Assembly: GCA_015490795.1 (NCBI GenBank)
Contig: WFXD01000004.1
Span: forward strand, 1-64,000
DNA length: 64,000 nucleotides
Reading direction: 5' to 3'
Source of the DNA: Gammaproteobacteria bacterium
Lineage (GTDB): Bacteria > Pseudomonadota > Gammaproteobacteria > Chromatiales > Chromatiaceae
Made by a program: the position numbers and the translations under genes. Positions 13,098 to 25,156 of the stretch are shown in pieces. Below the pieces are notes generated by a model, which was not told the origin of the DNA, made no database searches, and was given only the letters and a program-made list of their open reading frames with translations. Positions within the stretch are counted from its first letter, which is position 1. Every line of letters begins with the position of its first letter.

Positions 13098-13895
13098 ATG
13101 TCTGGTGAACCCCGTACTAAACTAAACCGCTTGCTCAGGGCCTGGTCCCAGGGCACTGTTGCTGTGTCCCGCTGGCTGGAGGGCCGGGGGGCGTACCAGC
13201 AGCTGCTGCATGAATATGAAAAAAGCGGGTGGATAGAGCGCATCGGCCAGGGTGCTTACATACGTGCCGGCGATACCGTCGAATGGACCGGTGGACTCTA
13301 CGCCCTTCAGGAACAGGTGAAGCTTCCCATCCATGTGGGTGCCAAAACGGCATTGCAGATGCAGGGATATGCGCATTTCCTGCCGCTGGGGCAAGGTGGA
13401 TCCGTGACGCTATTCGGTAGCCCCGGCACCCGGTTGCCCGCCTGGTTTTCCCGGTATGACTGGGGAGCCAAGCTTCGTTACGTCACCACAAAGCTGTTTG
13501 CTGATGACCCGGATGCAGGTCTCACCACGACGACACTGGGCACCTGGAGCGTCATCCTCTCAGCCCCGGAACGTGCCATGATGGAAGTTCTGCATCTGGT
13601 GCCCGGAAAGGAAACTTTCGAAGAAGCGAGCCTGCTCATGGAGAGCATGACCACCCTGCGCCCACGCCTGGTTCAGTCACTGCTGGAGCAATGCCGGTCT
13701 GTGAAAGTGAAACGGTTGTTCATGTTTCTCGCGGAAAACCACAATCATGCCTGGGTTAGAAAGCTGAATCTGTCGCAGGTGGACTTCGGAAAAGGTAAGC
13801 GCATGATCGTCAGAGGTGGACGATTTGATGCAAAATACAAAATTACTGTTCCTGATATGGATTTCAGTCTGGAGGAATCGGTGCATTCGGCATGA
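13098..13895 (+). CDS. abiEi: AbiEi-family antitoxin (type IV toxin-antitoxin)
   Basis: A 265-residue protein with the N-terminal winged-helix DNA-binding domain of AbiEi antitoxins (GTVAVSRWLEGRGAYQQLLHEYEKSGWIERIGQGAYIRAGD). A C-terminal antitoxin region follows, with HVGAKTALQMQGYAHFL and the conserved STPERAMME-like segment SAPERAMMEVLHLV. In known AbiE systems AbiEi represses transcription and neutralises AbiEii. It overlaps abiEii by 4 bp (ATGA). As the first gene of a run that continues without gaps into hsdRMS, its repressor activity could set expression of the whole defence operon. Confidence 0.85.
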   Translation: MSGEPRTKLNRLLRAWSQGTVAVSRWLEGRGAYQQLLHEYEKSGWIERIGQGAYIRAGDTVEWTGGLYALQEQVKLPIHVGAKTALQMQGYAHFLPLGQGGSVTLFGSPGTRLPAWFSRYDWGAKLRYVTTKLFADDPDAGLTTTTLGTWSVILSAPERAMMEVLHLVPGKETFEEASLLMESMTTLRPRLVQSLLEQCRSVKVKRLFMFLAENHNHAWVRKLNLSQVDFGKGKRMIVRGGRFDAKYKITVPDMDFSLEESVHSA

Positions 13896-14809
13896 AGGAG
13901 AGTCCTTACTTCAAACAGGCGCAGCTCATGCTGCGGGTCATGCCCCATGTGGCAGCAGAAGAATGCTTTGCGCTGAAGGGCGGCACGGCAATCAACTTCT
14001 TTGTACGCAACATGCCGAGACTATCAGTTGATATCGATCTGACTTGGTTGCCGCTGGAGCCACGCGACATGGCATTGGCAAATATCGGCCAAGCTCTGCA
14101 CCGTATTGCTACCGGCATATGCAAAACCATGCCTGAAGCGGCTGTGCAGGAAAGTATCGCAAGAAGTGCGGAGCACGCTTCCAAGCTGTTCGTAAGCACA
14201 GGTGAGGCTACGATCAAAATTGAGCCGAATCTGGTGCTACGTGGCACAGTATATCCTCCCGAGGAACGGGAACTGAGTGTGCGGGCCGAGGAGCTGTTTG
14301 AACTGTCTGCTTCAATAAACACAGCGGCATTTGCAGACCTTTATGGCGGCAAGCTCTGTGCGGCACTGGATCGCCAGCATCCACGTGACCTTTTTGATAT
14401 TAAAGTGCTGATGGATAATGAAGGCATTACCGATGAGATTCGAAGCGCATTCATCGTGTATCTTGCAAGTCACAACCGTCCGATGAGTGAATTGCTCAAC
14501 CCTAACAAAAAAGATTTTCGCCAAGTATTTGAGCAAGAATTTGTTGGAATGACGATAGAAGAAGTTGAGTACGATGAACTGATTGCAGTCCGTAAAAGGC
14601 TCATTGAAACAATCAAGAAAGCGATGACAGAGAATGAGAAGAAATTTCTGCTTTCAATAAAGTATGGGGAACCGGCATGGGATCTTATGCCAATGGCAGG
14701 TATCGACCAACTGCCAGCGCTTCAATGGAAGCTGATCAATATTCAGAAGATGAAGAAAGCGAAACGGGTAGAGTCACTTCAGAAGCTTCAATCGGTATTG
14801 GGGTTGTGA
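13892..14809 (+). CDS. abiEii: AbiEii/AbiGii-family nucleotidyltransferase toxin
   Basis: A 305-residue toxin of the DUF1814 nucleotidyltransferase group. The active-site signature FALKGGTAINFF (about residues 27-38) followed by LSVDIDLTWLP (metal-binding D-x-D) is clear. Later motifs ADLYGGKLCAALDRQHPRDLFDIKVL are also typical of the family. AbiEii-type toxins modify RNA (some charge tRNA 3' ends with nucleotides) and block growth when phage infection upsets the antitoxin; the target here is unknown. The stop codon directly abuts the hsdR start codon, with no spacer. Confidence 0.88.
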   Translation: MKESPYFKQAQLMLRVMPHVAAEECFALKGGTAINFFVRNMPRLSVDIDLTWLPLEPRDMALANIGQALHRIATGICKTMPEAAVQESIARSAEHASKLFVSTGEATIKIEPNLVLRGTVYPPEERELSVRAEELFELSASINTAAFADLYGGKLCAALDRQHPRDLFDIKVLMDNEGITDEIRSAFIVYLASHNRPMSELLNPNKKDFRQVFEQEFVGMTIEEVEYDELIAVRKRLIETIKKAMTENEKKFLLSIKYGEPAWDLMPMAGIDQLPALQWKLINIQKMKKAKRVESLQKLQSVLGL

Positions 14810-16948
14810 ATGAGCGACTATAGCAACAAAAAGGAAGCCTTCTCCCGCGTTGTAATCGATGCGCAACTCAAGGATGTCGGATGGAATCTCACTGATGGTC
14901 AGAGTGTGCGTTATGAGTACAAGTTGCCAGACGGCACGTTCGCTGATTATGTCCTGAGTGACCGCTACGGCCGGGCGATGGCGGTAGTTGAGGCCAAGCG
15001 GGCTGCTGTTAACCTTCAGGAGGCGGCAGACCAGGGGCGGGCCTATGCTGAGCAACTGGATGATGTACCTTATATCTTCCTTGCCAATGGTGAAGAGATC
15101 CTGTTCTGGGACTACCGCAATGAGGCCTACCCGCACCCTGTCAGTACCTTTTTTAAACAGGGGGATATCGAACGCCGTCTGGCCAAGCGCAAGGTTCGAG
15201 TCGATCCACTGAGCAAGCCAATCGACCAACGGATTGCCGGTCGGGACTACCAGAAAGAGTGCATTGATATCTTGTGTGGAGAGATGAATATCGGCCGGCG
15301 AAAACTGCTGGTTGAGATGGCTACCGGCACCGGTAAGACACGCACCGCCGCGGCGCTCATCAAACGTCTGTTTGAGGCAAGTAACGCTACTCGCGTTCTG
15401 TTCCTGGTAGATCGCATTACCCTGGCCAAGCAGACGGAAGATGCCTTCAATGAGCACCTGCCTGATTTTCCTTGCTATGTCCTGCGTACCGGCCGCCGTT
15501 TCCAGGACGAGAAACTCATCACCATCACCACCCTCCAGAGCATGATCAATATCTACCGCGATTACTCAGCGGGATATTTTGATCTTATCATCACCGATGA
15601 ATGCCACCGCAGCATCTACGGCAAGTGGAGCGGTATCCTCAAATACTTCGATGGTATCCAGATTGGTCTGACGGCTACTCCATTCACCAGCAATATAGAA
15701 ACTGGTGATGAAGAAGACCTGGAGTTCGTCCGGGATACATTACGTTTTTTTGGGGTTAGTGAACCGACTTACCGGTATGCCCTACGCAATGCGGTAAATG
15801 AAGGCTACCTCGTCCCCTACCAAATTTACAAGGCACAGACAATCAAGACGGCAGCCGAGGATGGTTTCGAGGTCAAAAAGAGTGAGTTGGACTGGTCTGC
15901 CATGTCACCAAAGGTCAAAGAGGAATTCACCCAACTCTTCGCAGACCGTGACACCATCAAGGTTGATCCCAATGCTCTGGAGCGCAAGTTCACCATTCCC
16001 GAGCGTAACCGCGCCATTGTGCGCGAATATAAGCAGGTAATGGAAAAGGGCTACACAGACCACACGGGCAGATTGCGCAAGCCACTCATTGGCAAGACCA
16101 TCGTCTTTGCCGTCACCAAGCGCCATGCTGAGACACTAGCCCAGATGTTTGATGAGGCTTTTGCGCACGAAAAACCTTCACCGGATGTACGTTATGCTGA
16201 TTTCGTGGTCTCGGGTTGCGGCAAGGAAGACAGTGTGGATGGCGCAACCAAGATCAAACGATTCAAGAAAGAGCGCTTTCCACAGATACTTGTCTCCGTG
16301 AACATGCTGGATACGGGTTTTGATGCGCCTGAGGTCGTCAACCTGATCATGGCCCGGTTCACCCGCTCGGTGATCCTCTACCGACAGATGCGCGGACGCG
16401 GTACGCGCAAGTCCCCCGGTAAATCTCTTTTTACCTTGTTCGACTTTGTTGGTGTGACCGACTACCACGATGATGACGAAACCATGCCGGAAGGTGGGTT
16501 CATCAAAGAGGCCAAGCCACGAACCCGGCATGAACCCAGAACGCTGCTGCCCCTTGATGTCGATGACCACATTGATCCTTCCACACGGGAATGGGTCACC
16601 ATTGATGACAATGGCAATTTTGTCTTCATGGATGCCGATGAAGCAAAGGCCGCCCTGCGGGGTGCCCGGTTCGAGGCCTGGATGGGCGGCCAGAAACACC
16701 TGAACTCCGACATGAAGCGGTTGCTGCTGACGGTGGGTGAGTACATCAAGGCCAATGCCGACACCCTGGAAGAGTTCACGATTGACCACTTTGTAGTGCC
16801 ACCATTCTCCAATATCGGCGGTATGCAGCGTGCTATGCAGTCATTTGGCACTGAGGACAAATTGGCAAAAACAATCAAGAGCCTGAACAAAGCCCTCTTT
16901 GCATATGGCGAAACAGTCCATAACGAACAAAAACCACTTAACCCCTGA
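14810..16948 (+). CDS. hsdR: Type I restriction enzyme, R subunit
   Basis: A 712-residue motor and nuclease subunit. The N-terminal PD-(D/E)XK nuclease is seen as FADYVLSDRYGRAMAVVEAKR (about residues 44-65). Superfamily 2 motor motifs follow: ATGTGKTRTAA (about 172), ITDECHRSIYGKW (about 262), LTATPF (about 290), FAVTKRHAETLAQ (about 434) and RQMRGRGTRKS (about 524). It is shorter than EcoR124-type HsdR and in the size range of EcoEI-like subunits. With HsdM and HsdS it would translocate and cut DNA that lacks the methyl mark. ATG directly follows the AbiEii stop codon, strong evidence for a shared message. Confidence 0.9.
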   Translation: MSDYSNKKEAFSRVVIDAQLKDVGWNLTDGQSVRYEYKLPDGTFADYVLSDRYGRAMAVVEAKRAAVNLQEAADQGRAYAEQLDDVPYIFLANGEEILFWDYRNEAYPHPVSTFFKQGDIERRLAKRKVRVDPLSKPIDQRIAGRDYQKECIDILCGEMNIGRRKLLVEMATGTGKTRTAAALIKRLFEASNATRVLFLVDRITLAKQTEDAFNEHLPDFPCYVLRTGRRFQDEKLITITTLQSMINIYRDYSAGYFDLIITDECHRSIYGKWSGILKYFDGIQIGLTATPFTSNIETGDEEDLEFVRDTLRFFGVSEPTYRYALRNAVNEGYLVPYQIYKAQTIKTAAEDGFEVKKSELDWSAMSPKVKEEFTQLFADRDTIKVDPNALERKFTIPERNRAIVREYKQVMEKGYTDHTGRLRKPLIGKTIVFAVTKRHAETLAQMFDEAFAHEKPSPDVRYADFVVSGCGKEDSVDGATKIKRFKKERFPQILVSVNMLDTGFDAPEVVNLIMARFTRSVILYRQMRGRGTRKSPGKSLFTLFDFVGVTDYHDDDETMPEGGFIKEAKPRTRHEPRTLLPLDVDDHIDPSTREWVTIDDNGNFVFMDADEAKAALRGARFEAWMGGQKHLNSDMKRLLLTVGEYIKANADTLEEFTIDHFVVPPFSNIGGMQRAMQSFGTEDKLAKTIKSLNKALFAYGETVHNEQKPLNP

Positions 16949-16963
16949 CACAACTGGACCACA

Positions 16964-18622
16964 ATGCCGTTAACCCCTGAAATCCGACAGAAGATCGAGC
17001 AGATCCGCGACTACCTCTATGGCGGCGGTTATCCCGATCCTATGAATAACGCCGAACAGTTGGCATTCCTGTTTTACTTCTACCTCAGCGAAGGCCGGGA
17101 CAAAGAGAATATCAGCCGTGCCCGCATCACCAAGCAGTCGTTCACCAGTTATTATGATGGCCGGTGGGCGCTCAAGAACCCCCTCAACGCGCCCAAAGAA
17201 GGACAGAAGACGATCTCCCGCGACCGGTTGCGCTGGTCTGTCTGGGCCAAGGCGCTAAGCGGTGAGAACCTGGTGTGTTTCCTGCGTGATGAAGTGTTTG
17301 CTTTTCATACCGAGGTGGCCAGCAACGGCGCCGTGAATTTCATGGATGGCGCCCGCCTCGGTATCGATGATCCCACGGTGCTCACCCAGGTGATCAATCT
17401 GGTGGATGAACTGCGCCTCGATCAGGCCGATGCCGACACTAAAGGCGACCTGTTCGAACATGTCCTCAAACAGATCAGTCAGGCCGGTGAACTGGGCCAG
17501 TTCCGCACGCCAAGGCATGTCATTCGCGCCATCGTGCAGATGGTTGATCCGCAAATCGGTGAGACGGTATATGATCCGGCTGCCGGTACCGCAGGTTTCC
17601 TGGTTGCCGCCTATGACCATATCCGGCTGCGGAACTCCTCGCCCAATGCTATCGAGGAAGTTGAGCTGGATGGCAAAAAGATCAAGCGCGGACACGGCGA
17701 CAAGCTCTCCGCCGCAAAGTGGGACATTCTTGGCAGCAAGACCTTCTATGGCAACGACGTGGACCCCAAGATGGTCCATCTCGCCACCATGAACCTGACC
17801 CTGCGCGGCTTGCCCCACGTGCGCATCCGCCGCCGCAACGTTCTGACCACCACCCTGGATGCTCAACAGAAAGAAGATCTCGGCCTGCCGCAGGAAGGTT
17901 ACGCCGTCATCCTTGCCAATCCCCCGTTTTCCGGTCGCATCGACAAGGACCGCATCGTCGATGACGTGAAGGTGGGTACCACCACCGCCACAGAGATCCT
18001 GTTTATCAAATACATGATGGACTCGTTACGCTCCCCTACTAGCTCCAGAAGAGGGGCCAGGGGTAAGGGTGGCCGTTGTGGTGTTATTGTGCCTGAGGGT
18101 GTGCTGTTCGGCTCTACCGGTGCCCACAAGGAGCTGCGCCGTCAGTTGTTGGAGAACAATACGGTGGAAGCTGTGCTTTCTTTGCCGAGCGGTACCTTCC
18201 AGCCTTACTCCAACGTGAAGACCTCTGTGCTGATATTTAGGAAAGGTGGCAGCACTGACAAGGTGCTGTTCCTCCATGCCGATAACGATGGCTATAAACT
18301 TGATGCCAAGCACGATGCCCCTATTGATGACGATGATTTACCTGGCTTGGTTGCCGCCTACCAGGATTGTGAAGCATGTTGGATGAAATGGGGCAGGCGC
18401 AAGGAAGGCGAAGAGTGGGCTGAAAAATGGTGGTTTGCCACTGCTGATGATATCAAAGCTAATGAGTATAACTTATCGGCGGGGCGTTACCGTCCGTTGG
18501 TGCAAGCTCAGGTTGAGCATCGTGCCCCGCTTGAGTTGCTGGATGAATTGGCAGCAATAGAATCGGAGATAGTGGAGGAAATTGAGGGGCTTCGCGAGGT
18601 GCTGGGCGAGGTTGGATCATGA
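16964..18622 (+). CDS. hsdM: Type I R-M DNA methyltransferase, M subunit
   Basis: A 552-residue N6-adenine methyltransferase. The N-terminal HsdM helical domain is followed by GQFRTPRHVIRAIVQMV, the SAM-binding motif YDPAAGTAGFL (about residues 202-212) and the catalytic NPPF in LANPPFSGRID (about 318-328). GVIVPEGVLFG and KTSVLIFRKG are conserved later blocks. It acts as M2S for methylation and as part of R2M2S for restriction. The gene starts 15 bp after hsdR and overlaps hsdS by 4 bp. Confidence 0.93.
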   Translation: MPLTPEIRQKIEQIRDYLYGGGYPDPMNNAEQLAFLFYFYLSEGRDKENISRARITKQSFTSYYDGRWALKNPLNAPKEGQKTISRDRLRWSVWAKALSGENLVCFLRDEVFAFHTEVASNGAVNFMDGARLGIDDPTVLTQVINLVDELRLDQADADTKGDLFEHVLKQISQAGELGQFRTPRHVIRAIVQMVDPQIGETVYDPAAGTAGFLVAAYDHIRLRNSSPNAIEEVELDGKKIKRGHGDKLSAAKWDILGSKTFYGNDVDPKMVHLATMNLTLRGLPHVRIRRRNVLTTTLDAQQKEDLGLPQEGYAVILANPPFSGRIDKDRIVDDVKVGTTTATEILFIKYMMDSLRSPTSSRRGARGKGGRCGVIVPEGVLFGSTGAHKELRRQLLENNTVEAVLSLPSGTFQPYSNVKTSVLIFRKGGSTDKVLFLHADNDGYKLDAKHDAPIDDDDLPGLVAAYQDCEACWMKWGRRKEGEEWAEKWWFATADDIKANEYNLSAGRYRPLVQAQVEHRAPLELLDELAAIESEIVEEIEGLREVLGEVGS

Positions 18623-19863
18623 TCTGTGCTCAGAAACAGGCGGCCGCTTATCAGTTATGCCGCGCAAATGTGGCACATCAACCTCTGGGGGAGGTATGTC
18701 AAATCAATCCTAGACTTCCAAAGGATGCAAAGCCTGATTCAGACACACAAGTTACTTTTGTGCCGATGACGGTAGTTGATGAAGAAACTGGGTCCATACA
18801 GGCTCCGGATATCCGGCCATATTCTGAGGTCGCAAAAGGCTACACCCATTTCTTAAATGGTGATGTGCTCTTCGCCAAAATCACCCCTTGTATGGAGAAT
18901 GGCAAGGCAGCTATTGCTACTAACCTAGTCAATGGTCTTGGATTTGGATCCACAGAGTTCCATGTTCTGCGTGCAGAACCGGAGGTTTTGCCAGAGTGGG
19001 TGTTTTATTTTGTTCGCCGTGAAAGTTTTCGATGTCAGGCCAAAGCAAGCTTTACTGGTTCAGCAGGCCAGCAAAGAGTCTCAAGGCAATTTATGGAAAC
19101 TGTGCAGATTCCTGTTCCCTCTCTTTCTGAACAACGCCGCATCATCGACATCCTCAAACGCGCCGACGGTATCCGCCGCTTGCGCAAACAGGCTCAGGAT
19201 ACCGCCCGCCAACTGATCCCCGCCTTATTCGTCGATATGTTCGGTGACCCGGTGGCGAACCCAAACGGCTGGATAATCAAACCGCTCAAAGAAGTAGCTC
19301 ATATCGGGTCAGGTATAACCAAGGGACGAAAACTGAACGGGCATCAGACTGTAGAGTTGCCCTACTTGGCAGTGTCAAATGTTCAGGATGGCCATCTGAA
19401 CCTTACGAAGGTTAAATCTATCCATGTCAAACCTATAGAAATAGAGAAATACCGAGTACTCCCAGGCGATTTTCTGATGACTGAGGGAGGTGACCCTGAC
19501 AAGCTCGGTCGCGGTGCGATATGGAACGGTGAAATCGATGTCTGTCTCCACCAGAACCATGTGTTCAAAGTGCGATGTAACAGAGAAGTGATTCTCCCGG
19601 AATACCTGAGATCACTTGTCGGTAGTTATTACGGAAAGGGATATTTTCTTCGTATTGCAAAACAGACAACCGGGATAGCTTCTATCAACAAGACACAGCT
19701 CGGTAACTTTCCTGTGCTGGTGCCACCGATAGAGTTCCAAAATGACTTTGTAGCGCAATTAGAGGGCATTCAGTCCATTATGGGCCAACAGGAAGCGGCA
19801 CAGGCTAGTGCTGAGTCAAGTTTTCAATCACTCATACACCATGCATTTTCCGTTGGGTTCTGA
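18619..19863 (+). CDS. hsdS: Type I R-M specificity subunit
   Basis: A 414-residue protein with two target recognition domains (about residues 15-170 and 215-390), each followed by conserved helical spacers. The central one reads LSEQRRIIDILKRADGIRRLRKQAQ, then LIPALFVDMFGDPV, where the second half begins. The DNA coding for both recognition domains is richer in A+T than the spacers, as expected for modules exchanged by recombination. It determines the bipartite site recognised by HsdM and HsdR. The start overlaps hsdM by 4 bp. Confidence 0.9.
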   Translation: MICAQKQAAAYQLCRANVAHQPLGEVCQINPRLPKDAKPDSDTQVTFVPMTVVDEETGSIQAPDIRPYSEVAKGYTHFLNGDVLFAKITPCMENGKAAIATNLVNGLGFGSTEFHVLRAEPEVLPEWVFYFVRRESFRCQAKASFTGSAGQQRVSRQFMETVQIPVPSLSEQRRIIDILKRADGIRRLRKQAQDTARQLIPALFVDMFGDPVANPNGWIIKPLKEVAHIGSGITKGRKLNGHQTVELPYLAVSNVQDGHLNLTKVKSIHVKPIEIEKYRVLPGDFLMTEGGDPDKLGRGAIWNGEIDVCLHQNHVFKVRCNREVILPEYLRSLVGSYYGKGYFLRIAKQTTGIASINKTQLGNFPVLVPPIEFQNDFVAQLEGIQSIMGQQEAAQASAESSFQSLIHHAFSVGF

Positions 19864-19934
19864 ATGATGAAAAACCTTCGTGAATCTTCGTCCCCTTCGT
19901 GGATAACATTTATTCCAGACCAGGTTAAGCCAAC

Positions 19935-21647
19935 ATGCTGACACACATAACCATCCGCAATTTCAAAGGCTTCGAAGAGGCCTCTTTCGAGCTGGGCGAC
20001 CGGGTTGTGCTGATCGGGCCGAACAACTCCGGCAAGACCTCGGCGTTGCAAGCCCTGGCGCTGTGGGACATCGGCCTCAAACGTTGGATCGAGAAGCGAG
20101 GTACGGGTCCACTGCCAAAAAAGAAACGTCAGGGCGTGACGATCAACCGCCGTGACCTGATTGCGGTCTCAGTCCCCGCAGCCAACCTGCTCTGGCGCAA
20201 CCTTCATGTTCGGGAGTCGGTTAAGGGCAAGGGCACCCAAAATATCCGTATCGACATCATCGTCAAAGGGGTTTCGAACGGTGGGGCCTGGGAATGCGGT
20301 CTGGAGTTCGATTACGCCAACGAGGAGTCCTTCTACTGTCGGCCCTTACGTTTGAGTGAGGAAAAGGATCCCGAACGTATGCCGGTCCCCGAGCAGGCGC
20401 GGGGGGTGCGGGTTGCCTATCTACCACCCATGTCTGGTCTTACTGCCGTCGAGACACGGCTGGATGCCGGGGCGATCAATGTCAGGCTGGGTGAGGGACG
20501 CACTGCGGAGGTTTTGAGAAACCTCTGTTACCGGATACTTGAGGGGGAGAATGGCGAACAGCAATGGGTTGACCTGACCGATAGGATCAAAAAATTCTTT
20601 GGCGTGGAACTGGATGAGCCGCGCTATTTGACCGAACGAGGAGAGATCATGCTCTCCTATCGTGACCGGGGTGTGCAACTCGATATCTCATCATCCGGAC
20701 GCGGGTTGCAACAGACCATTCTGCTGCTGGCTCACATGATGGCGAATCCCGGGTCGGTGCTGCTCATGGATGAGCCGGATGCCCACCTTGAGATATTACG
20801 CCAGCGGCAGATATACCAATTGCTGACAGACACTGCCAGGCAGTATGGCAACCAGCTTCTCGCCGCCAGCCATTCCGAGGTTATCCTCAACGAGGCCGCA
20901 GATCGGGATATGGTCATTGCATTCGTGGGAAAACCCCACCGAATTGACGACAGAGGCTCCCAGCTACTCAAGTCCCTGAAAGAGATAGGCTATGAGCAAT
21001 ACTATCAGGCGGAAGAGACCGGGTGGGTGCTTTACCTGGAAGGCTCCACTGATCTTGCGATCCTTCGGGCCTTTGCCGAGGTTCTCGAACATCCTGCAAG
21101 TGAGGCTCTCGAACGTCCATTCGTTCACTATGTCGCAAACCAGCCCATGAAGGCGCTGGATCATTTTCACGGTCTGCGGGAGGCGAAGCCCGATCTGTCC
21201 GGGATCGCCATCTATGATCGCCTTGCTAAGAGCCTGCCAGGCAACTCGAATCTTGAACAGCGAATGTGGCAGCAATGCGAAATTGAGAACTACCTGTGTG
21301 GCAGGGAGGTGATACTGTCTTGGACAAGAGCGACCGCAGAAGGGGAATCGGAAGGCCCGCTCTTTGCTCAACGATGGGGAAAACTAATGAAAGGGACGAT
21401 CGCAGAATTTGAAACGGCTTTTGAAACACTGGGGAAACCATCACCTTGGGGGGCGGAAATCAAGGCTACAGATGATTTTCTTGACCCATTGTTCGACAAG
21501 TTCTTCGAGAAACTAGGGTTGCCCAACCTCATGCGTAAGACTGACTATCACGAACTAGCAAGATTTGTTCAAGCCGAAACACTTGATCTGGAAGTGAAGG
21601 AGGTGCTGGATGCTATTCAGCATGTAGCAGAGGCGGCTTCTTCTTGA
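19935..21647 (+). CDS. OLD-like ATPase with TOPRIM nuclease domain
   Basis: A 570-residue protein. The N-terminal ABC-type ATPase has MLTHITIRNFKGFEEASFELG and Walker A LIGPNNSGKTS (about 26-36). A signature-like SSGRGLQQTILLLAHM is at about 255 and Walker B VLLMDEPDAHLE at about 274. After it, LYLEGSTDLAILRAFAEVL (about 366) and SGIAIYDR (about 422) look like the acidic motifs of a TOPRIM domain. This is the architecture of OLD-family nucleases, which include GajA, but no UvrD-like partner is next to it. It lies 71 bp behind hsdS in the same direction, so it probably belongs to the defence operon. The intervening DNA has CTTCGTG-type short repeats. Confidence 0.75.
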   Translation: MLTHITIRNFKGFEEASFELGDRVVLIGPNNSGKTSALQALALWDIGLKRWIEKRGTGPLPKKKRQGVTINRRDLIAVSVPAANLLWRNLHVRESVKGKGTQNIRIDIIVKGVSNGGAWECGLEFDYANEESFYCRPLRLSEEKDPERMPVPEQARGVRVAYLPPMSGLTAVETRLDAGAINVRLGEGRTAEVLRNLCYRILEGENGEQQWVDLTDRIKKFFGVELDEPRYLTERGEIMLSYRDRGVQLDISSSGRGLQQTILLLAHMMANPGSVLLMDEPDAHLEILRQRQIYQLLTDTARQYGNQLLAASHSEVILNEAADRDMVIAFVGKPHRIDDRGSQLLKSLKEIGYEQYYQAEETGWVLYLEGSTDLAILRAFAEVLEHPASEALERPFVHYVANQPMKALDHFHGLREAKPDLSGIAIYDRLAKSLPGNSNLEQRMWQQCEIENYLCGREVILSWTRATAEGESEGPLFAQRWGKLMKGTIAEFETAFETLGKPSPWGAEIKATDDFLDPLFDKFFEKLGLPNLMRKTDYHELARFVQAETLDLEVKEVLDAIQHVAEAASS

Positions 21648-22018: not shown

Positions 22019-22328
22019 AACTGCTGGCTAAGATTCATGAGGAGTATGAGGAGCATCTCACATATCGCACCAGTCGGCATACGCTTAGCCGTGTCGTGGC
22101 GGCACTCAACGTGTTTAAACCCCGTGGTTGGGAGGTTGCCGTTGATGTAAGAGATGCTGTTGGCATGTTTACTGGGTATATGGATATGGGGGGGTTGCCA
22201 ATGTGGGCATCGTCATGATGGCCCTTGGGCAGCGCTATTTTGGCTTCGAATTGGAGCTGAAGTTGGCCGGTCTCAGGGCTAATCTACTGCTCTGGTGGGA
22301 TGGAATATCGGTATCTTGTCGAGTGTAA
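22009..22328 (+). pseudogene. Frameshifted fragment of an unknown protein
   Basis: One frame reads HGNELLAKIHEEYEEHL, then RVVAALNVFKPRGWEVAVDVRDAVGMFTGYMDMG, up to a run of seven G (22186-22192). After it the sensible reading continues in a different frame as VANVGIVMMALGQRYFGFE and on to a stop at 22326. The protein-like character on both sides suggests a single-base indel in the G-run. I do not recognise the family. Its start meets the S8 peptidase fragment near 22010-22030, presumably an old deletion or insertion junction. Confidence 0.4.
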
Positions 22329-22338
22329 ATCCTGACCA

Positions 22339-22500
22339 CTATGCACTGAGAACAGTGCACACTGGTGAGGACTCACGTCCTTTATGCTTGTTGTGGCGTC
22401 GGTACTTGGTTTGGTCACGGAATGTAGATGCCCGCTGAAATCGTGCCGCATATCTGGCAACGGGGTTTCGGCGAGATGGCTTGGGCGGTTTTTTGCTCAT
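22339..22500 (-). CDS. Candidate ArfA-like ribosome-rescue factor (53 aa)
   Basis: A very small, very basic ORF (53 residues) with ATG at 22500 and an AAAGGAAA ribosome site upstream. It begins MSKKPPKPSRRNPVARYAA and continues with STFRDQTKYRRHNKHKGRE. The N-terminal MSKKP, an FR.. segment and a lysine/arginine-rich K..R...HKG block resemble ArfA, which recruits release factor 2 to ribosomes stalled on messages lacking a stop. A stem-loop sits on the last codons: TGCACTG and CAGTGCA around a 4-base loop. ArfA genes in several gammaproteobacteria carry such a hairpin near the end, making a stop-less message that is degraded unless tmRNA fails. Assignment rests on short similarity and is tentative. 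Confidence 0.45.
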   Translation of the reverse strand: MSKKPPKPSRRNPVARYAARFQRASTFRDQTKYRRHNKHKGRESSPVCTVLSA

Positions 22501-22533
22501 AGTTGCTTTCCTTTCAGGTTGTAGAGAAGGTTA

Positions 22534-23616
22534 TCATTTGGCCCACTTATATCGTGCCCGATGAATGTGATGGTTAAGAGGAAGCCGGCCATCATGCTGC
22601 AGCCGGCCAACGACGATTCCCGGCGCGATATCGATCTCATCGGAAAATGATGCAATATTTGCAGCAGTGAAGTGTCCTGCCTTTACAAAAGCTCGATAAG
22701 GCGCTGGTGGGATGAGTGTTTTTTGGGCAAATTCATCGGCTTCTTCTTCCTGTTTCTTCCAGTTAGGGTCGTTAAGCCCATCTTCAAGGAAGGTATGGCG
22801 CTTGTCATGCAGCAGGATGTGCCCCAGTTCGTGAAATAGGCTAAACCAGAAAATATCCGCCCAGCTTCCCCGGATGCTCATCATTAAAACAGCCTTGTTC
22901 GGGTTGGCCCAGAAGGTTGCACCATTGGTATAGGTTTTTGGAAAGCGTGGCAGTAGTACGAACGCAATGCCCACTTCCGCCAGTTGCTGCTTGAGTGCCG
23001 ACAGAAAGGCTCCAGGTTCTTCACGAGTCAGATGGCGAAGTTTTCGCAATGCTGCGCGTGCCTTGGCCTGGTCGAATGGCTTGGTATCAATCTTGTCAGC
23101 CTCCAGTGCGCCTCCACGCAACCACGCAACCAGTGCCTCATGCGAGGCTTTGCTCTTGGTGGATTGGCGAAATGCTGGCGCATAGGCACGTACACCGGGC
23201 AGATTGTGTAGCGAGGCCACACCGAAAAATCGGCGCAGTTCCACCACCTTTTCTGATCGTTTGCGGGTTGGCTTTACCCAGCCGAGTTTTGCGATTTCGG
23301 GGTAGGGGAAGTGAATAGCCAGATTGGTTTCGTGTTCAACCTGTTCTGCTGCATTGCTTCGCGCCTTTGTCAGCTGATACTCTGCCTCCAGACCGGTCCA
23401 GATATGAGCGGGCACACCAAGCACCTGCTCCAGTTGCAGCGCAGTATCCGGCGTAATGGACTTGATACCACTGGCAATCTCACTGATTGCCTGGACAGGC
23501 CGGCCCATGCGTCGCGCCAATTCAGCCTGGCTCATGCTCATTTCTTCAGCAATCTCGGACAAATAAACCCCCGGCGGTACTGCAAGATCCGAATAGATTT
23601 CCTGGTTAGTCGCCAT
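22534..23616 (-). CDS. higA: HigA/ImmA-type antitoxin: HTH plus ImmA/IrrE metallopeptidase
   Basis: A 360-residue protein. The N-terminal XRE helix-turn-helix is of HigA type (PPGVYLSEIAEEMSMSQAELARRMGRPVQAISEIASG, about residues 14-50). The second half is an ImmA/IrrE-like zinc peptidase domain with HELGH at residues 262-266, then EEEADEFAQKTLIPP. It would act as antitoxin and autorepressor for the RelE-like toxin encoded just upstream. Whether the peptidase motif is active in regulation is unknown. The start codon lies inside the toxin gene (11-bp overlap), so the toxin comes first, as in higBA operons. Confidence 0.8.
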   Translation of the reverse strand: MATNQEIYSDLAVPPGVYLSEIAEEMSMSQAELARRMGRPVQAISEIASGIKSITPDTALQLEQVLGVPAHIWTGLEAEYQLTKARSNAAEQVEHETNLAIHFPYPEIAKLGWVKPTRKRSEKVVELRRFFGVASLHNLPGVRAYAPAFRQSTKSKASHEALVAWLRGGALEADKIDTKPFDQAKARAALRKLRHLTREEPGAFLSALKQQLAEVGIAFVLLPRFPKTYTNGATFWANPNKAVLMMSIRGSWADIFWFSLFHELGHILLHDKRHTFLEDGLNDPNWKKQEEEADEFAQKTLIPPAPYRAFVKAGHFTAANIASFSDEIDIAPGIVVGRLQHDGRLPLNHHIHRARYKWAK

Positions 23617-23908
23617 AATGTTTGCTTACCTCTTCGATGTGGACAATTTCCAGCATCTCACCCTCAAGGGAAAAAATCAGTCGATAGAATCCGGTGATAT
23701 TGACGGCGTATTGCCCAGTCCGATCCCCTTTGAGTGGATGACATCGCAATACGGGCAGTCTTATCAATTCCTCGATATTCTTGGCTTGCTTGATCGTGTT
23801 GATGCGTAGGATATATCGCTTCGCGGCGTCCTCGCCATACGCCTTAACGGCCTTCCGATATTCTCTGTAGCAGCGTTCCAGCTGTCTGGTCCTGAAAACA
23901 ACGATCAA
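23606..23908 (-). CDS. higB: HigB/RelE-family toxin
   Basis: A 100-residue protein of the RelE/ParE fold: MIVVFRTRQLERCYREYRKAVKAYGEDAAKRYILRINTI in pieces up to residue 40, then LPVLRCHPLKGDRTGQYAVNITGFYRLIF, the usual basic and aromatic residues of ribosome-dependent mRNA interferases. The start is TTG at 23908 with AAAGGA about 9 bp upstream. It is followed by and overlaps the HigA/ImmA-like antitoxin gene, with a 21-bp palindromic operator about 50 bp upstream. Confidence 0.82.
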   Translation of the reverse strand: MIVVFRTRQLERCYREYRKAVKAYGEDAAKRYILRINTIKQAKNIEELIRLPVLRCHPLKGDRTGQYAVNITGFYRLIFSLEGEMLEIVHIEEVSKHYGD

Positions 23909-24095: not shown

Positions 24096-25073
24096 CTATC
24101 CTAATTTCCTCGCCAAATCCTCTGCCTTGAGGTGCGTATATCTGCGCAGCATGCGCAGATCTTTGTGCCCGGTAATGCTGGCCACTTCCATGATGTTGAG
24201 ACCGAGTTCGAAAAAGCGCGTTGTGGCTTCATGCCGCAGATCATGGAAATGGAGGTCTTCAATTCCGGCCCGGCGTACCGCACGGATATAGGCGCGTTTG
24301 ACGGCCTCGGTAGTGAGTCCGGGGAATACTTGGCCGTGGATGCCGCGTGGGAGTGATCGCAGAACTCTGATAGCAATGGATGACAGTGGCACGTCACGCG
24401 ATTCTCCATTCTTGGTGTCCGGCAGGTGGGCAGTGCGGCGATTTAGATCAATATTCTCCCAGCGAAGGCTGACCAGCTCTGCCTGGCGCATGGCAGTCTC
24501 TAGCGCCAGGTGAACAATAGGGAGGAGGAATGGGTTTTTGGCCCCTTTGCATGCTTCCAGCAGTCGGCTTTCTTCGCTTTTCTCACCGTCGTGGCCGGTC
24601 TGAAGGCGGCGTTCCCGGGCTTTGGAGTGTGGAGGCAGTTTGATGTCCCGTACCGGATTGGCGACGTGAATCCCCCATTCTTTGCGGGCGACTTCAAATA
24701 GATGGGAGATGATCACAAGCTCCTTTTTGACGGTGGCCGGTAGAACCTTTTTTAAACGCGCATCCCGGTAGCGAGCGATATCAACACCGCGGATACTGGC
24801 AACAATTCGGTGTGCAAGCGAATGCTTGAGGAAAGCACGGATACGGGCGGACTCGGATGCGACCCCTTTCTTCAGCGGAGTGATCTCTTCCTTATAGCGC
24901 TCTAACAGCTCCCGCAGCGTGGTGGATTCTGCTTCTGCCCGGGATACGAAGATGCCCTGGTCCATTTCATACTCTACTGCCCGGACCCACTTCTCTGCGG
25001 CAGCGCGGGTATCAAAGGTATTGCACTGATGGTCGGTCGATAACTGCTCCTGCATGATCGACACTTCCGCCAT
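24096..25073 (-). CDS. int: Island integrase (tyrosine recombinase)
   Basis: A 325-residue integrase reading away from tRNA-Pro. Catalytic residues are seen in the order Arg (TAMRQAELVSLRW), Lys (TKNGESRDVPLS), His-x-x-Arg (HDLRHEATTRFF), His (TGHKDLRMLRR) and Tyr (RRYTHLKAEDLA). The core-binding domain covers about residues 50-150. The start at 25073 is 7 bp from the tRNA CCA end; compared with relatives the extreme N-terminus looks short, since the usual RKR..WRA arm-binding start is missing, and the frame runs on into the tRNA without another good start. It should integrate and excise the island at the tRNA 3' half. Confidence 0.9.
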   Translation of the reverse strand: MAEVSIMQEQLSTDHQCNTFDTRAAAEKWVRAVEYEMDQGIFVSRAEAESTTLRELLERYKEEITPLKKGVASESARIRAFLKHSLAHRIVASIRGVDIARYRDARLKKVLPATVKKELVIISHLFEVARKEWGIHVANPVRDIKLPPHSKARERRLQTGHDGEKSEESRLLEACKGAKNPFLLPIVHLALETAMRQAELVSLRWENIDLNRRTAHLPDTKNGESRDVPLSSIAIRVLRSLPRGIHGQVFPGLTTEAVKRAYIRAVRRAGIEDLHFHDLRHEATTRFFELGLNIMEVASITGHKDLRMLRRYTHLKAEDLARKLG

Positions 25074-25124
25074 CCATGGTGGTCGGAGTGAGAGGATTCG
25101 AACCTCCGGCCCCTGCCTCCCGAA
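25030..25124. repeat. Right copy of 95-bp direct repeat (att site in tRNA-Pro)
   Basis: Same sequence as 9680-9774 except one base. It covers the tRNA-Pro 3' half from the anticodon loop through CCA (25080-25124), the 6-bp spacer and the first 44 bases of int. A plain integration would duplicate only the tRNA part plus any chance identity; the extension into int needs a second related element. Confidence 0.9.
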
Positions 25125-25156
25125 GGCAGTGCTCTACCAGGCTGAGCTACACTCCG
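25080..25156 (-). tRNA. tRNA-Pro (anticodon CGG)
   Basis: A full cloverleaf of 77 nt with encoded CCA. The acceptor is CGGAGTG paired with CACTCCG. The D arm is GCTC/GAGC. The anticodon stem CTGCC/GGCAG has loop TTCGGGA, giving anticodon CGG. The T arm has TTCGAAT in its loop. The 5' end is 2 bp after the ispB stop codon and there is no separate promoter, so it is probably processed from the ispB transcript. Its 3' half is the island attachment site. Confidence 0.95.

Follow-up and report, generated by a model that had tools for sequence, protein, structure and literature searches.

Does a short basic reading frame, which lies beside toxin genes on a defence island and whose last codons fold into a hairpin, encode a ribosome-rescue factor of the ArfA kind? 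We considered this question within a 64,000-nucleotide stretch of DNA from a gammaproteobacterial contig (the whole of which is henceforth referred to as the window). From sequence comparison and by analogy with known rescue factors, we propose, with a probability of roughly 0.75, that the gene, which belongs to the Pfam family DUF7230, encodes a divergent ArfA-type, release-factor-dependent backup rescue factor that would be made from a non-stop message, and that it is found here together with a PD-lambda-2-like HigBA module.

A conserved DUF7230 reading frame

22339..22500, minus strand: DUF7230 (PF23876) reading frame, 53 amino acids (Pfam match and pN/pS)
22507..22514, minus strand: Shine-Dalgarno-like element AAAGGAAA, 6 nt before the ATG (read from the sequence)

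An earlier note on this DNA had described a basic frame of 53 residues, and such a frame is present on the minus strand, where it runs from 22500 to 22339 and reads MSKKPPKPSRRNPVARYAARFQRASTFRDQTKYRRHNKHKGRESSPVCTVLSA; the plus-strand frame at 22339-22500 is not open and contains a stop. The peptide is highly basic (17 K/R/H against 2 D/E), and its residues 9-46 match DUF7230 with 55.8 bits (4.9e-15), a score above the curated cut-off of 27 bits for PF23876, which places it in the family. NCBIfam gave zero matches to the frame, several PHROG families of unknown function matched weakly to moderately (the best being phrog_6310 at 9.8e-9), and the window protein used as query returned weak matches only from phages, no plasmid match and none in viral contigs. 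Our searches found no solved structure for the protein, and a full-text literature search on 'DUF7230' found no paper.

The conserved core comprises residues 9-41 (NPVARYAARFQRA to FRDQTKYRRHNKHKG). Codons 2-41 show pN/pS ratios of 0.12-0.27 (6 pairs, 4 relatives), which indicates purifying selection, and identity to the window protein is 77% in locus L026, 83% in L027 (over the first 41 residues) and 85% in genome G179, all three of which also have a similar Shine-Dalgarno-like element. The tail beyond the KHKG block is under weaker constraint at the protein level than the core. In L027 the reading frame is altered after KHKG (VNPGQWALYSVHSG) while the hairpin is still intact, with 25 pairs. 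The window product would end in the hydrophobic stretch VCTVLSA, and it is only a guess that this acts as a degradation signal.

A large hairpin over the last codons

22325..22376, minus strand: hairpin, 52 nt, 22 pairs (folding, shuffles and pair conservation)
22264..22387, minus strand: 124-nt segment (hairpin and 3' flank) with a second copy elsewhere in the genome (92% identity)

The stem of 7 to 9 bp that had been noticed over the last codons is correctly placed but was much underestimated in size, as the 7-bp stem TGCACTG/CAGTGCA is merely the tip of a hairpin of 52 nt and 22 pairs. Its 5' arm begins at codon 42, directly behind the KHKG block with which the core ends, and this bears out the claim that the conserved part lies before the hairpin; its 3' arm contains the TAG stop, which the hairpin accordingly spans. 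The predicted minimum free energy is -34.6 kcal/mol (71 nt; z = -5.96), and none of 200 shuffled sequences was equally stable. When the structure of one copy is applied to a small set of five related copies that includes it, 93.6% of pair cells remain paired and two-sided changes are seen at five pairs, compared with 32-44% paired in controls with slid partners. Rfam holds no family for the hairpin and returned only weak miRNA matches far under the gathering scores. There is no T-tract after the window hairpin, which makes cleavage by RNase III likelier here than intrinsic termination; in either case the hairpin would be the site, as predicted from the sequence, at which a non-stop message is generated.

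The hairpin segment occurs in two copies only in this genome. The second, 92% identical, lies at a contig end (contig C8 of G000, 20177-20300; loci L002 and L008) beside a fragment which, from its C-terminus, we take to be the 3' end of hppA. Such a copy next to an hppA-like fragment could indicate a mobile palindromic repeat that was inserted by chance at the 3' end of the gene, but we regard this as highly improbable: a count of two is low for such a repeat, the hairpin is kept in relatives with two-sided changes, and other lineages have unrelated stems in its place. Furthermore, the C8 copy reads HKGRESSPLCTIFSA in frame with a DUF7230 tail and so resembles the 3' terminus of another DUF7230 gene, which may have been cut by the assembly. 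On the plus strand of the window, a frame at 22190-22330 ending in ANLLLWWDGISVSCRV lies opposite the hairpin flank and is open in the C8 copy too (ANLLLWWDGISVSCRA).

In-frame stems across the DUF7230 family

DUF7230 genes scoring over the cut-off were collected from overlapping sets of 112 relatives (6 genes), 369 genomes of the class (11), 398 of the phylum (3) and 210 of the order (12). Each locus was given a stem score (one bulge allowed, loop of 3-8 nt, 5' arm starting before the stop) with a threshold of at least 11, and 146 frames of at least 200 amino acids from the window and the same loci served as controls. The 28 DUF7230 loci scored exclude L024 and L025 (spurious, below cut-off), L038 (below cut-off) and duplicate shorter loci, and include L039, L077 and L078 despite scores below the curated cut-off; they were grouped by genus or sequence similarity into 16 lineages, a lineage being positive if most of its loci were. 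In-frame hairpins that RNAfold predicts in two further lineages, G792 and G059, were missed by the stem score, and both were entered as negative, and at L073 the score chose another stem than the conserved one.

Stems reaching the threshold and starting before the stop were found at 15/28 DUF7230 loci (6/16 lineages), in 6/6 ArfA genes of the same class, in 2/4 phage genes and in 4/146 controls, and all four control stems end past the stop. Stems lying wholly before the stop were found at 10/28 DUF7230 loci and in 5/16 lineages, compared with 0/146 controls (p = 2.4e-9 for loci and 5e-6 for lineages). Many DUF7230 genes thus carry a strong stem or an intrinsic terminator inside the frame, directly behind the KHK block: the entire stem precedes the first in-frame stop in G044, G062, G846, G034 and its congeners, G316, G296 and G180, and intrinsic terminators with a T-run occur in G044, G062, G846, G034 and some of its congeners, G296 and G180. 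At that same point, all seven gene-bearing genomes of the genus g30 have a GC-rich hairpin before the stop, as predicted by RNAfold. The window hairpin spans the stop, as does that of the ArfA locus L042. In G057, G398, G243 and Pakpunavirus phages a plain stop follows just after the core. The free energy of the best hairpin was also tried as a statistic (46/126 controls at or below -20 vs 11/19 DUF7230 genes) and was dropped, since GC-rich genes form long imperfect hairpins that blurred the difference between controls and DUF7230.

The family extends to phages, where 424 records, mostly of Vibrio and Pseudomonas phages, match a DUF7230 query. The gene of the giant Pseudomonas phage PA5oct (L051, 977-1129) has a short in-frame terminator-like hairpin; no in-frame terminator was found in the other phage types examined (Pakpunavirus, a Kyanoviridae phage and Vibrio phage D316). 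The usefulness of rescue to these phages is not obvious, 10/16 DUF7230 lineages are without a high-scoring in-frame stem, and the composition of the peptide is strongly basic, all of which would suit a different ribosome- or nucleic-acid-binding peptide, either ribosomal-protein-like or serving phage takeover, with hairpins that are normal terminators packed close to where small genes end. We consider this distinctly unlikely, since stems lie wholly upstream of the stop in five lineages and in no control, in the position known from ArfA, and profiles link the family to ArfA (see below). If DUF7230 is indeed a rescue factor, phages that carry it could turn the peptide against message-cutting defences.

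A proposed distant relationship to ArfA

The earlier note had called the gene ArfA-like, and of this the rescue-factor design stands while the ArfA profile match does not: a search with PF03889 (ArfA) gives no match to the window protein, which falls in DUF7230 instead, and the link to ArfA is transitive. Neither the window's own genome nor the 112 relatives contain an ArfA over the cut-off. Direct comparison by hhalign of core DUF7230 (15 sequences) with ArfA (6 sequences) yields a probability of 2.5% only, and 47/500 shuffles score as well as the window protein against the ArfA HMM; on these results we reject direct membership of the ArfA family.

A relationship is found through intermediates. 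The g30 group (7 sequences, e.g. MKKGKAKRLVMQPRYRMRVVRDRRKYSRKTKHKKAP) matches ArfA with a probability of 96.3% (E 1.9e-9) and core DUF7230, in an alignment without any g30 sequence, with 95.2% (E 2.5e-8), and the A8 group (NPIAK..RxPxFR, 4 sequences) matches them with 81.3% and 95.6%, respectively. Column-shuffled nulls (100 times) reached scores of at most 15.1, compared with 25.2 to 39.9 observed. In addition, 8/20 DUF7230 proteins beat all 500 of their own shuffles with the six-sequence ArfA HMM. We read these profile comparisons as suggesting that DUF7230 and ArfA share a distant ancestry via the g30 and A8 groups.

The likeness extends to gene architecture. In E. coli, RNase III is described as cleaving arfA transcripts within a stem-loop located in the 3' portion of the frame, there are also shortened transcripts with ends slightly beyond this stem-loop, and full-length ArfA is reported to be unstable through its hydrophobic C-terminus (PMC3989581). 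Both kinds of protein are short and basic, with a conserved core that ends in a YxRKxKH-like basic tail, and both have a hairpin, terminator or RNase III site in frame behind the core (6/6 ArfA genes examined); the window gene shares this feature at the level of architecture only. DUF7230 hosts also have tmRNA. In contrast to ArfA, DUF7230 has an N-terminal NPVA motif, and the window gene adjoins higBA on an island. Moreover, the KGKGS motif and the aromatic F25 of ArfA are not found in the DUF7230 core: by a pattern of our own, the register of which is uncertain by one residue, N or Q directly precedes the conserved R/K in 20/21 core members (C in the remaining one), whereas ArfA and the bridge groups have F, Y or L. 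The aromatic residue of ArfA is described as contacting RF2, and ArfT, which does without it, as working with RF1 or RF2 (PMC6299226). Given the N/Q and this precedent, the release-factor partner of DUF7230 may differ, and by analogy core DUF7230 may work with RF1, or with both factors, instead of exclusively with RF2.

Two further rescue factors can be likened to DUF7230 by their published descriptions. BrfA of Bacillus subtilis is reported to have an intrinsic terminator in frame and to occur in a subset of Bacillaceae (PMC6881298). ArfT of Francisella tularensis is a short basic peptide that lacks an aromatic residue where ArfA has F25, but arfT is described as lacking a terminator or RNase III site before the stop (PMC6299226), and DUF7230 shows no counterpart of the KKGGSTNKK motif of ArfT. 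Both accounts consider that more release-factor-dependent rescue factors probably go unrecognised, as sequence similarity misses them (PMC6881298, PMC6299226). A hairpin within the frame provides a way of recognising further members of this class from sequence.

A HigBA module upstream of the gene

22534..23616, minus strand: HigA-like antitoxin HTH fused to an M78 (ImmA/IrrE) peptidase (TIGR02607 4.6e-16; PADLOC PD-Lambda-2_B 6.5e-43)
23606..23908, minus strand: HigB/RelE-like toxin, 100 amino acids, overlapping higA (PF05015 26.2 bits; phrog_3066 1e-14)

A HigB-type toxin gene had been claimed as a neighbour, and one is indeed present, although its PF05015 score of 26.2 bits is slightly under the cut-off of 27. 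The end of higA is 33 nt from the DUF7230 start codon, and the order higB-higA(peptidase)-DUF7230 with the same 33-nt spacing recurs in L026 and G179, i.e. in three genomes including that of the window, with identities to the window of 81-88% (higB), 83-84% (higA) and 77-85% (DUF7230). From this arrangement we infer that DUF7230 is co-transcribed with higBA. A promoter scan of the operon returned 2 sites, compared with 2.1 expected, and was uninformative. In G179 (L054, 2750-7134) the HigBA-DUF7230 genes are flanked by a gene that, as judged by eye, is HipA-like on one side and by a pair resembling Phd/YoeB on the other, which would make up a cluster of toxin-antitoxin genes.

PD-lambda-2 is described as a system of three components, of which A is HigB-like, B is a HigA-peptidase and the third, needed for defence against lambda-vir, is related to an antitoxin of phage P4 (PMC9519451). 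The window module resembles it in having a HigB-like first gene and a HigA-peptidase second, and differs in that its third gene is DUF7230 rather than a C component related to the P4 antitoxin (as described in PMC9519451) and in that its HigB matches no PADLOC model. The component reported to be toxic when overexpressed is B, not A (PMC9519451), and hence either the HigB or the HigA-peptidase of the window could be the toxin.

The closing position of DUF7230 in this conserved arrangement, together with the match of HigA to a system whose published account requires a third component (PMC9519451), raises the alternative that the peptide is an accessory part of HigBA, acting as a modulator or in the manner of PD-lambda-2C, and that the hairpin is an operon terminator or RNA-stability element. 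This is unlikely, since most other DUF7230 genes are without higBA (tblastn with the window higB and higA matches only L026 and L054 among the 17 DUF7230 loci laid out) and in-frame hairpins occur in such genes too. L027 retains DUF7230 together with some 70 nt of upstream sequence (77% identical) but has no higBA, and the peptide, like HigB, has no PADLOC match even at E<=10. The window HigA has 32 plasmid matches, and in the three inspected no annotated small gene or DUF7230 adjoins.

Proposed mode of action

We return to the proposal that DUF7230 is a rescue factor, the full mechanism of which we infer by analogy with ArfA and BrfA, backed by architecture and distant homology. When a ribosome stalls at the end of a stop-less message, its vacant mRNA channel would admit the basic KYRRxxKHKG tail, and the remainder of the peptide would recruit a release factor, such that the nascent peptide is freed. 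The DUF7230 mRNA itself would fold the 22-bp hairpin over its last codons and stop, and a cut by RNase III, or termination at the stem, would leave a message that ends in frame just after the core. In normal cells tmRNA would tag and destroy the product of this message, whereas truncated, active peptide would accumulate when tmRNA is overloaded, for example through the breakage of many mRNAs by a phage or by the HigB-like interferase encoded next door.

tmRNA is present in 18/18 DUF7230 genomes tested, with 213 bits in the window's own genome. The tmRNA of G179 (C7:144224-144391) scores 52.9 bits only, compared with 167-246 in the other 17, and is possibly diverged, permuted or incomplete. The window's own genome encodes two full-length release factors and one frame of 140 amino acids with an RF-1 domain, which may be ArfB; a short or partial extra RF-1 domain occurs in 7/18 DUF7230 genomes (a slightly different set from that used for tmRNA). 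ArfA occurs in 6 and DUF7230 in 13 of 369 genomes with no overlap, numbers too few for inferring mutual exclusion.

The peptide would presumably be of benefit against HigB or phage. More tentatively, and with the odds rather against it, the locus could be a toxin-antitoxin defence module with its own self-limiting rescue factor, in which HigB or a phage breaks messages, tmRNA becomes overloaded and only then the DUF7230 peptide accumulates and frees ribosomes, which would let the cell withstand its own toxin or recover from it. No literature pairing rescue factors with HigB, toxin-antitoxin systems or phage emerged from titles and the openings of abstracts. The pairing with HigBA would tie ribosome rescue to toxin-based phage defence, and the proposal as a whole assigns a concrete function, open to testing, to an uncharacterised Pfam family that spans several proteobacterial lineages and hundreds of phage records.

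Island setting

24096..25073, minus strand: tyrosine integrase adjoining tRNA-Pro (PF00589 2.4e-30)
25080..25156, minus strand: tRNA-Pro(cgg), candidate island integration site

The gene had been called mobile, and this is probable in view of the integrase and tRNA-Pro at 24096-25156 and of the absence of DUF7230 from all five other genomes of the genus, which indicates that the gene was probably gained. tRNA-Pro(cgg) is the probable integration site of the island, as judged from its adjacency to the integrase only. The island, which has the integrase beside tRNA-Pro at its end, also carries defence genes on the plus strand of the window at 13098-21647, namely AbiEi/AbiEii, a type I restriction-modification system (R, M and S) and an OLD/AriA-like ATPase.
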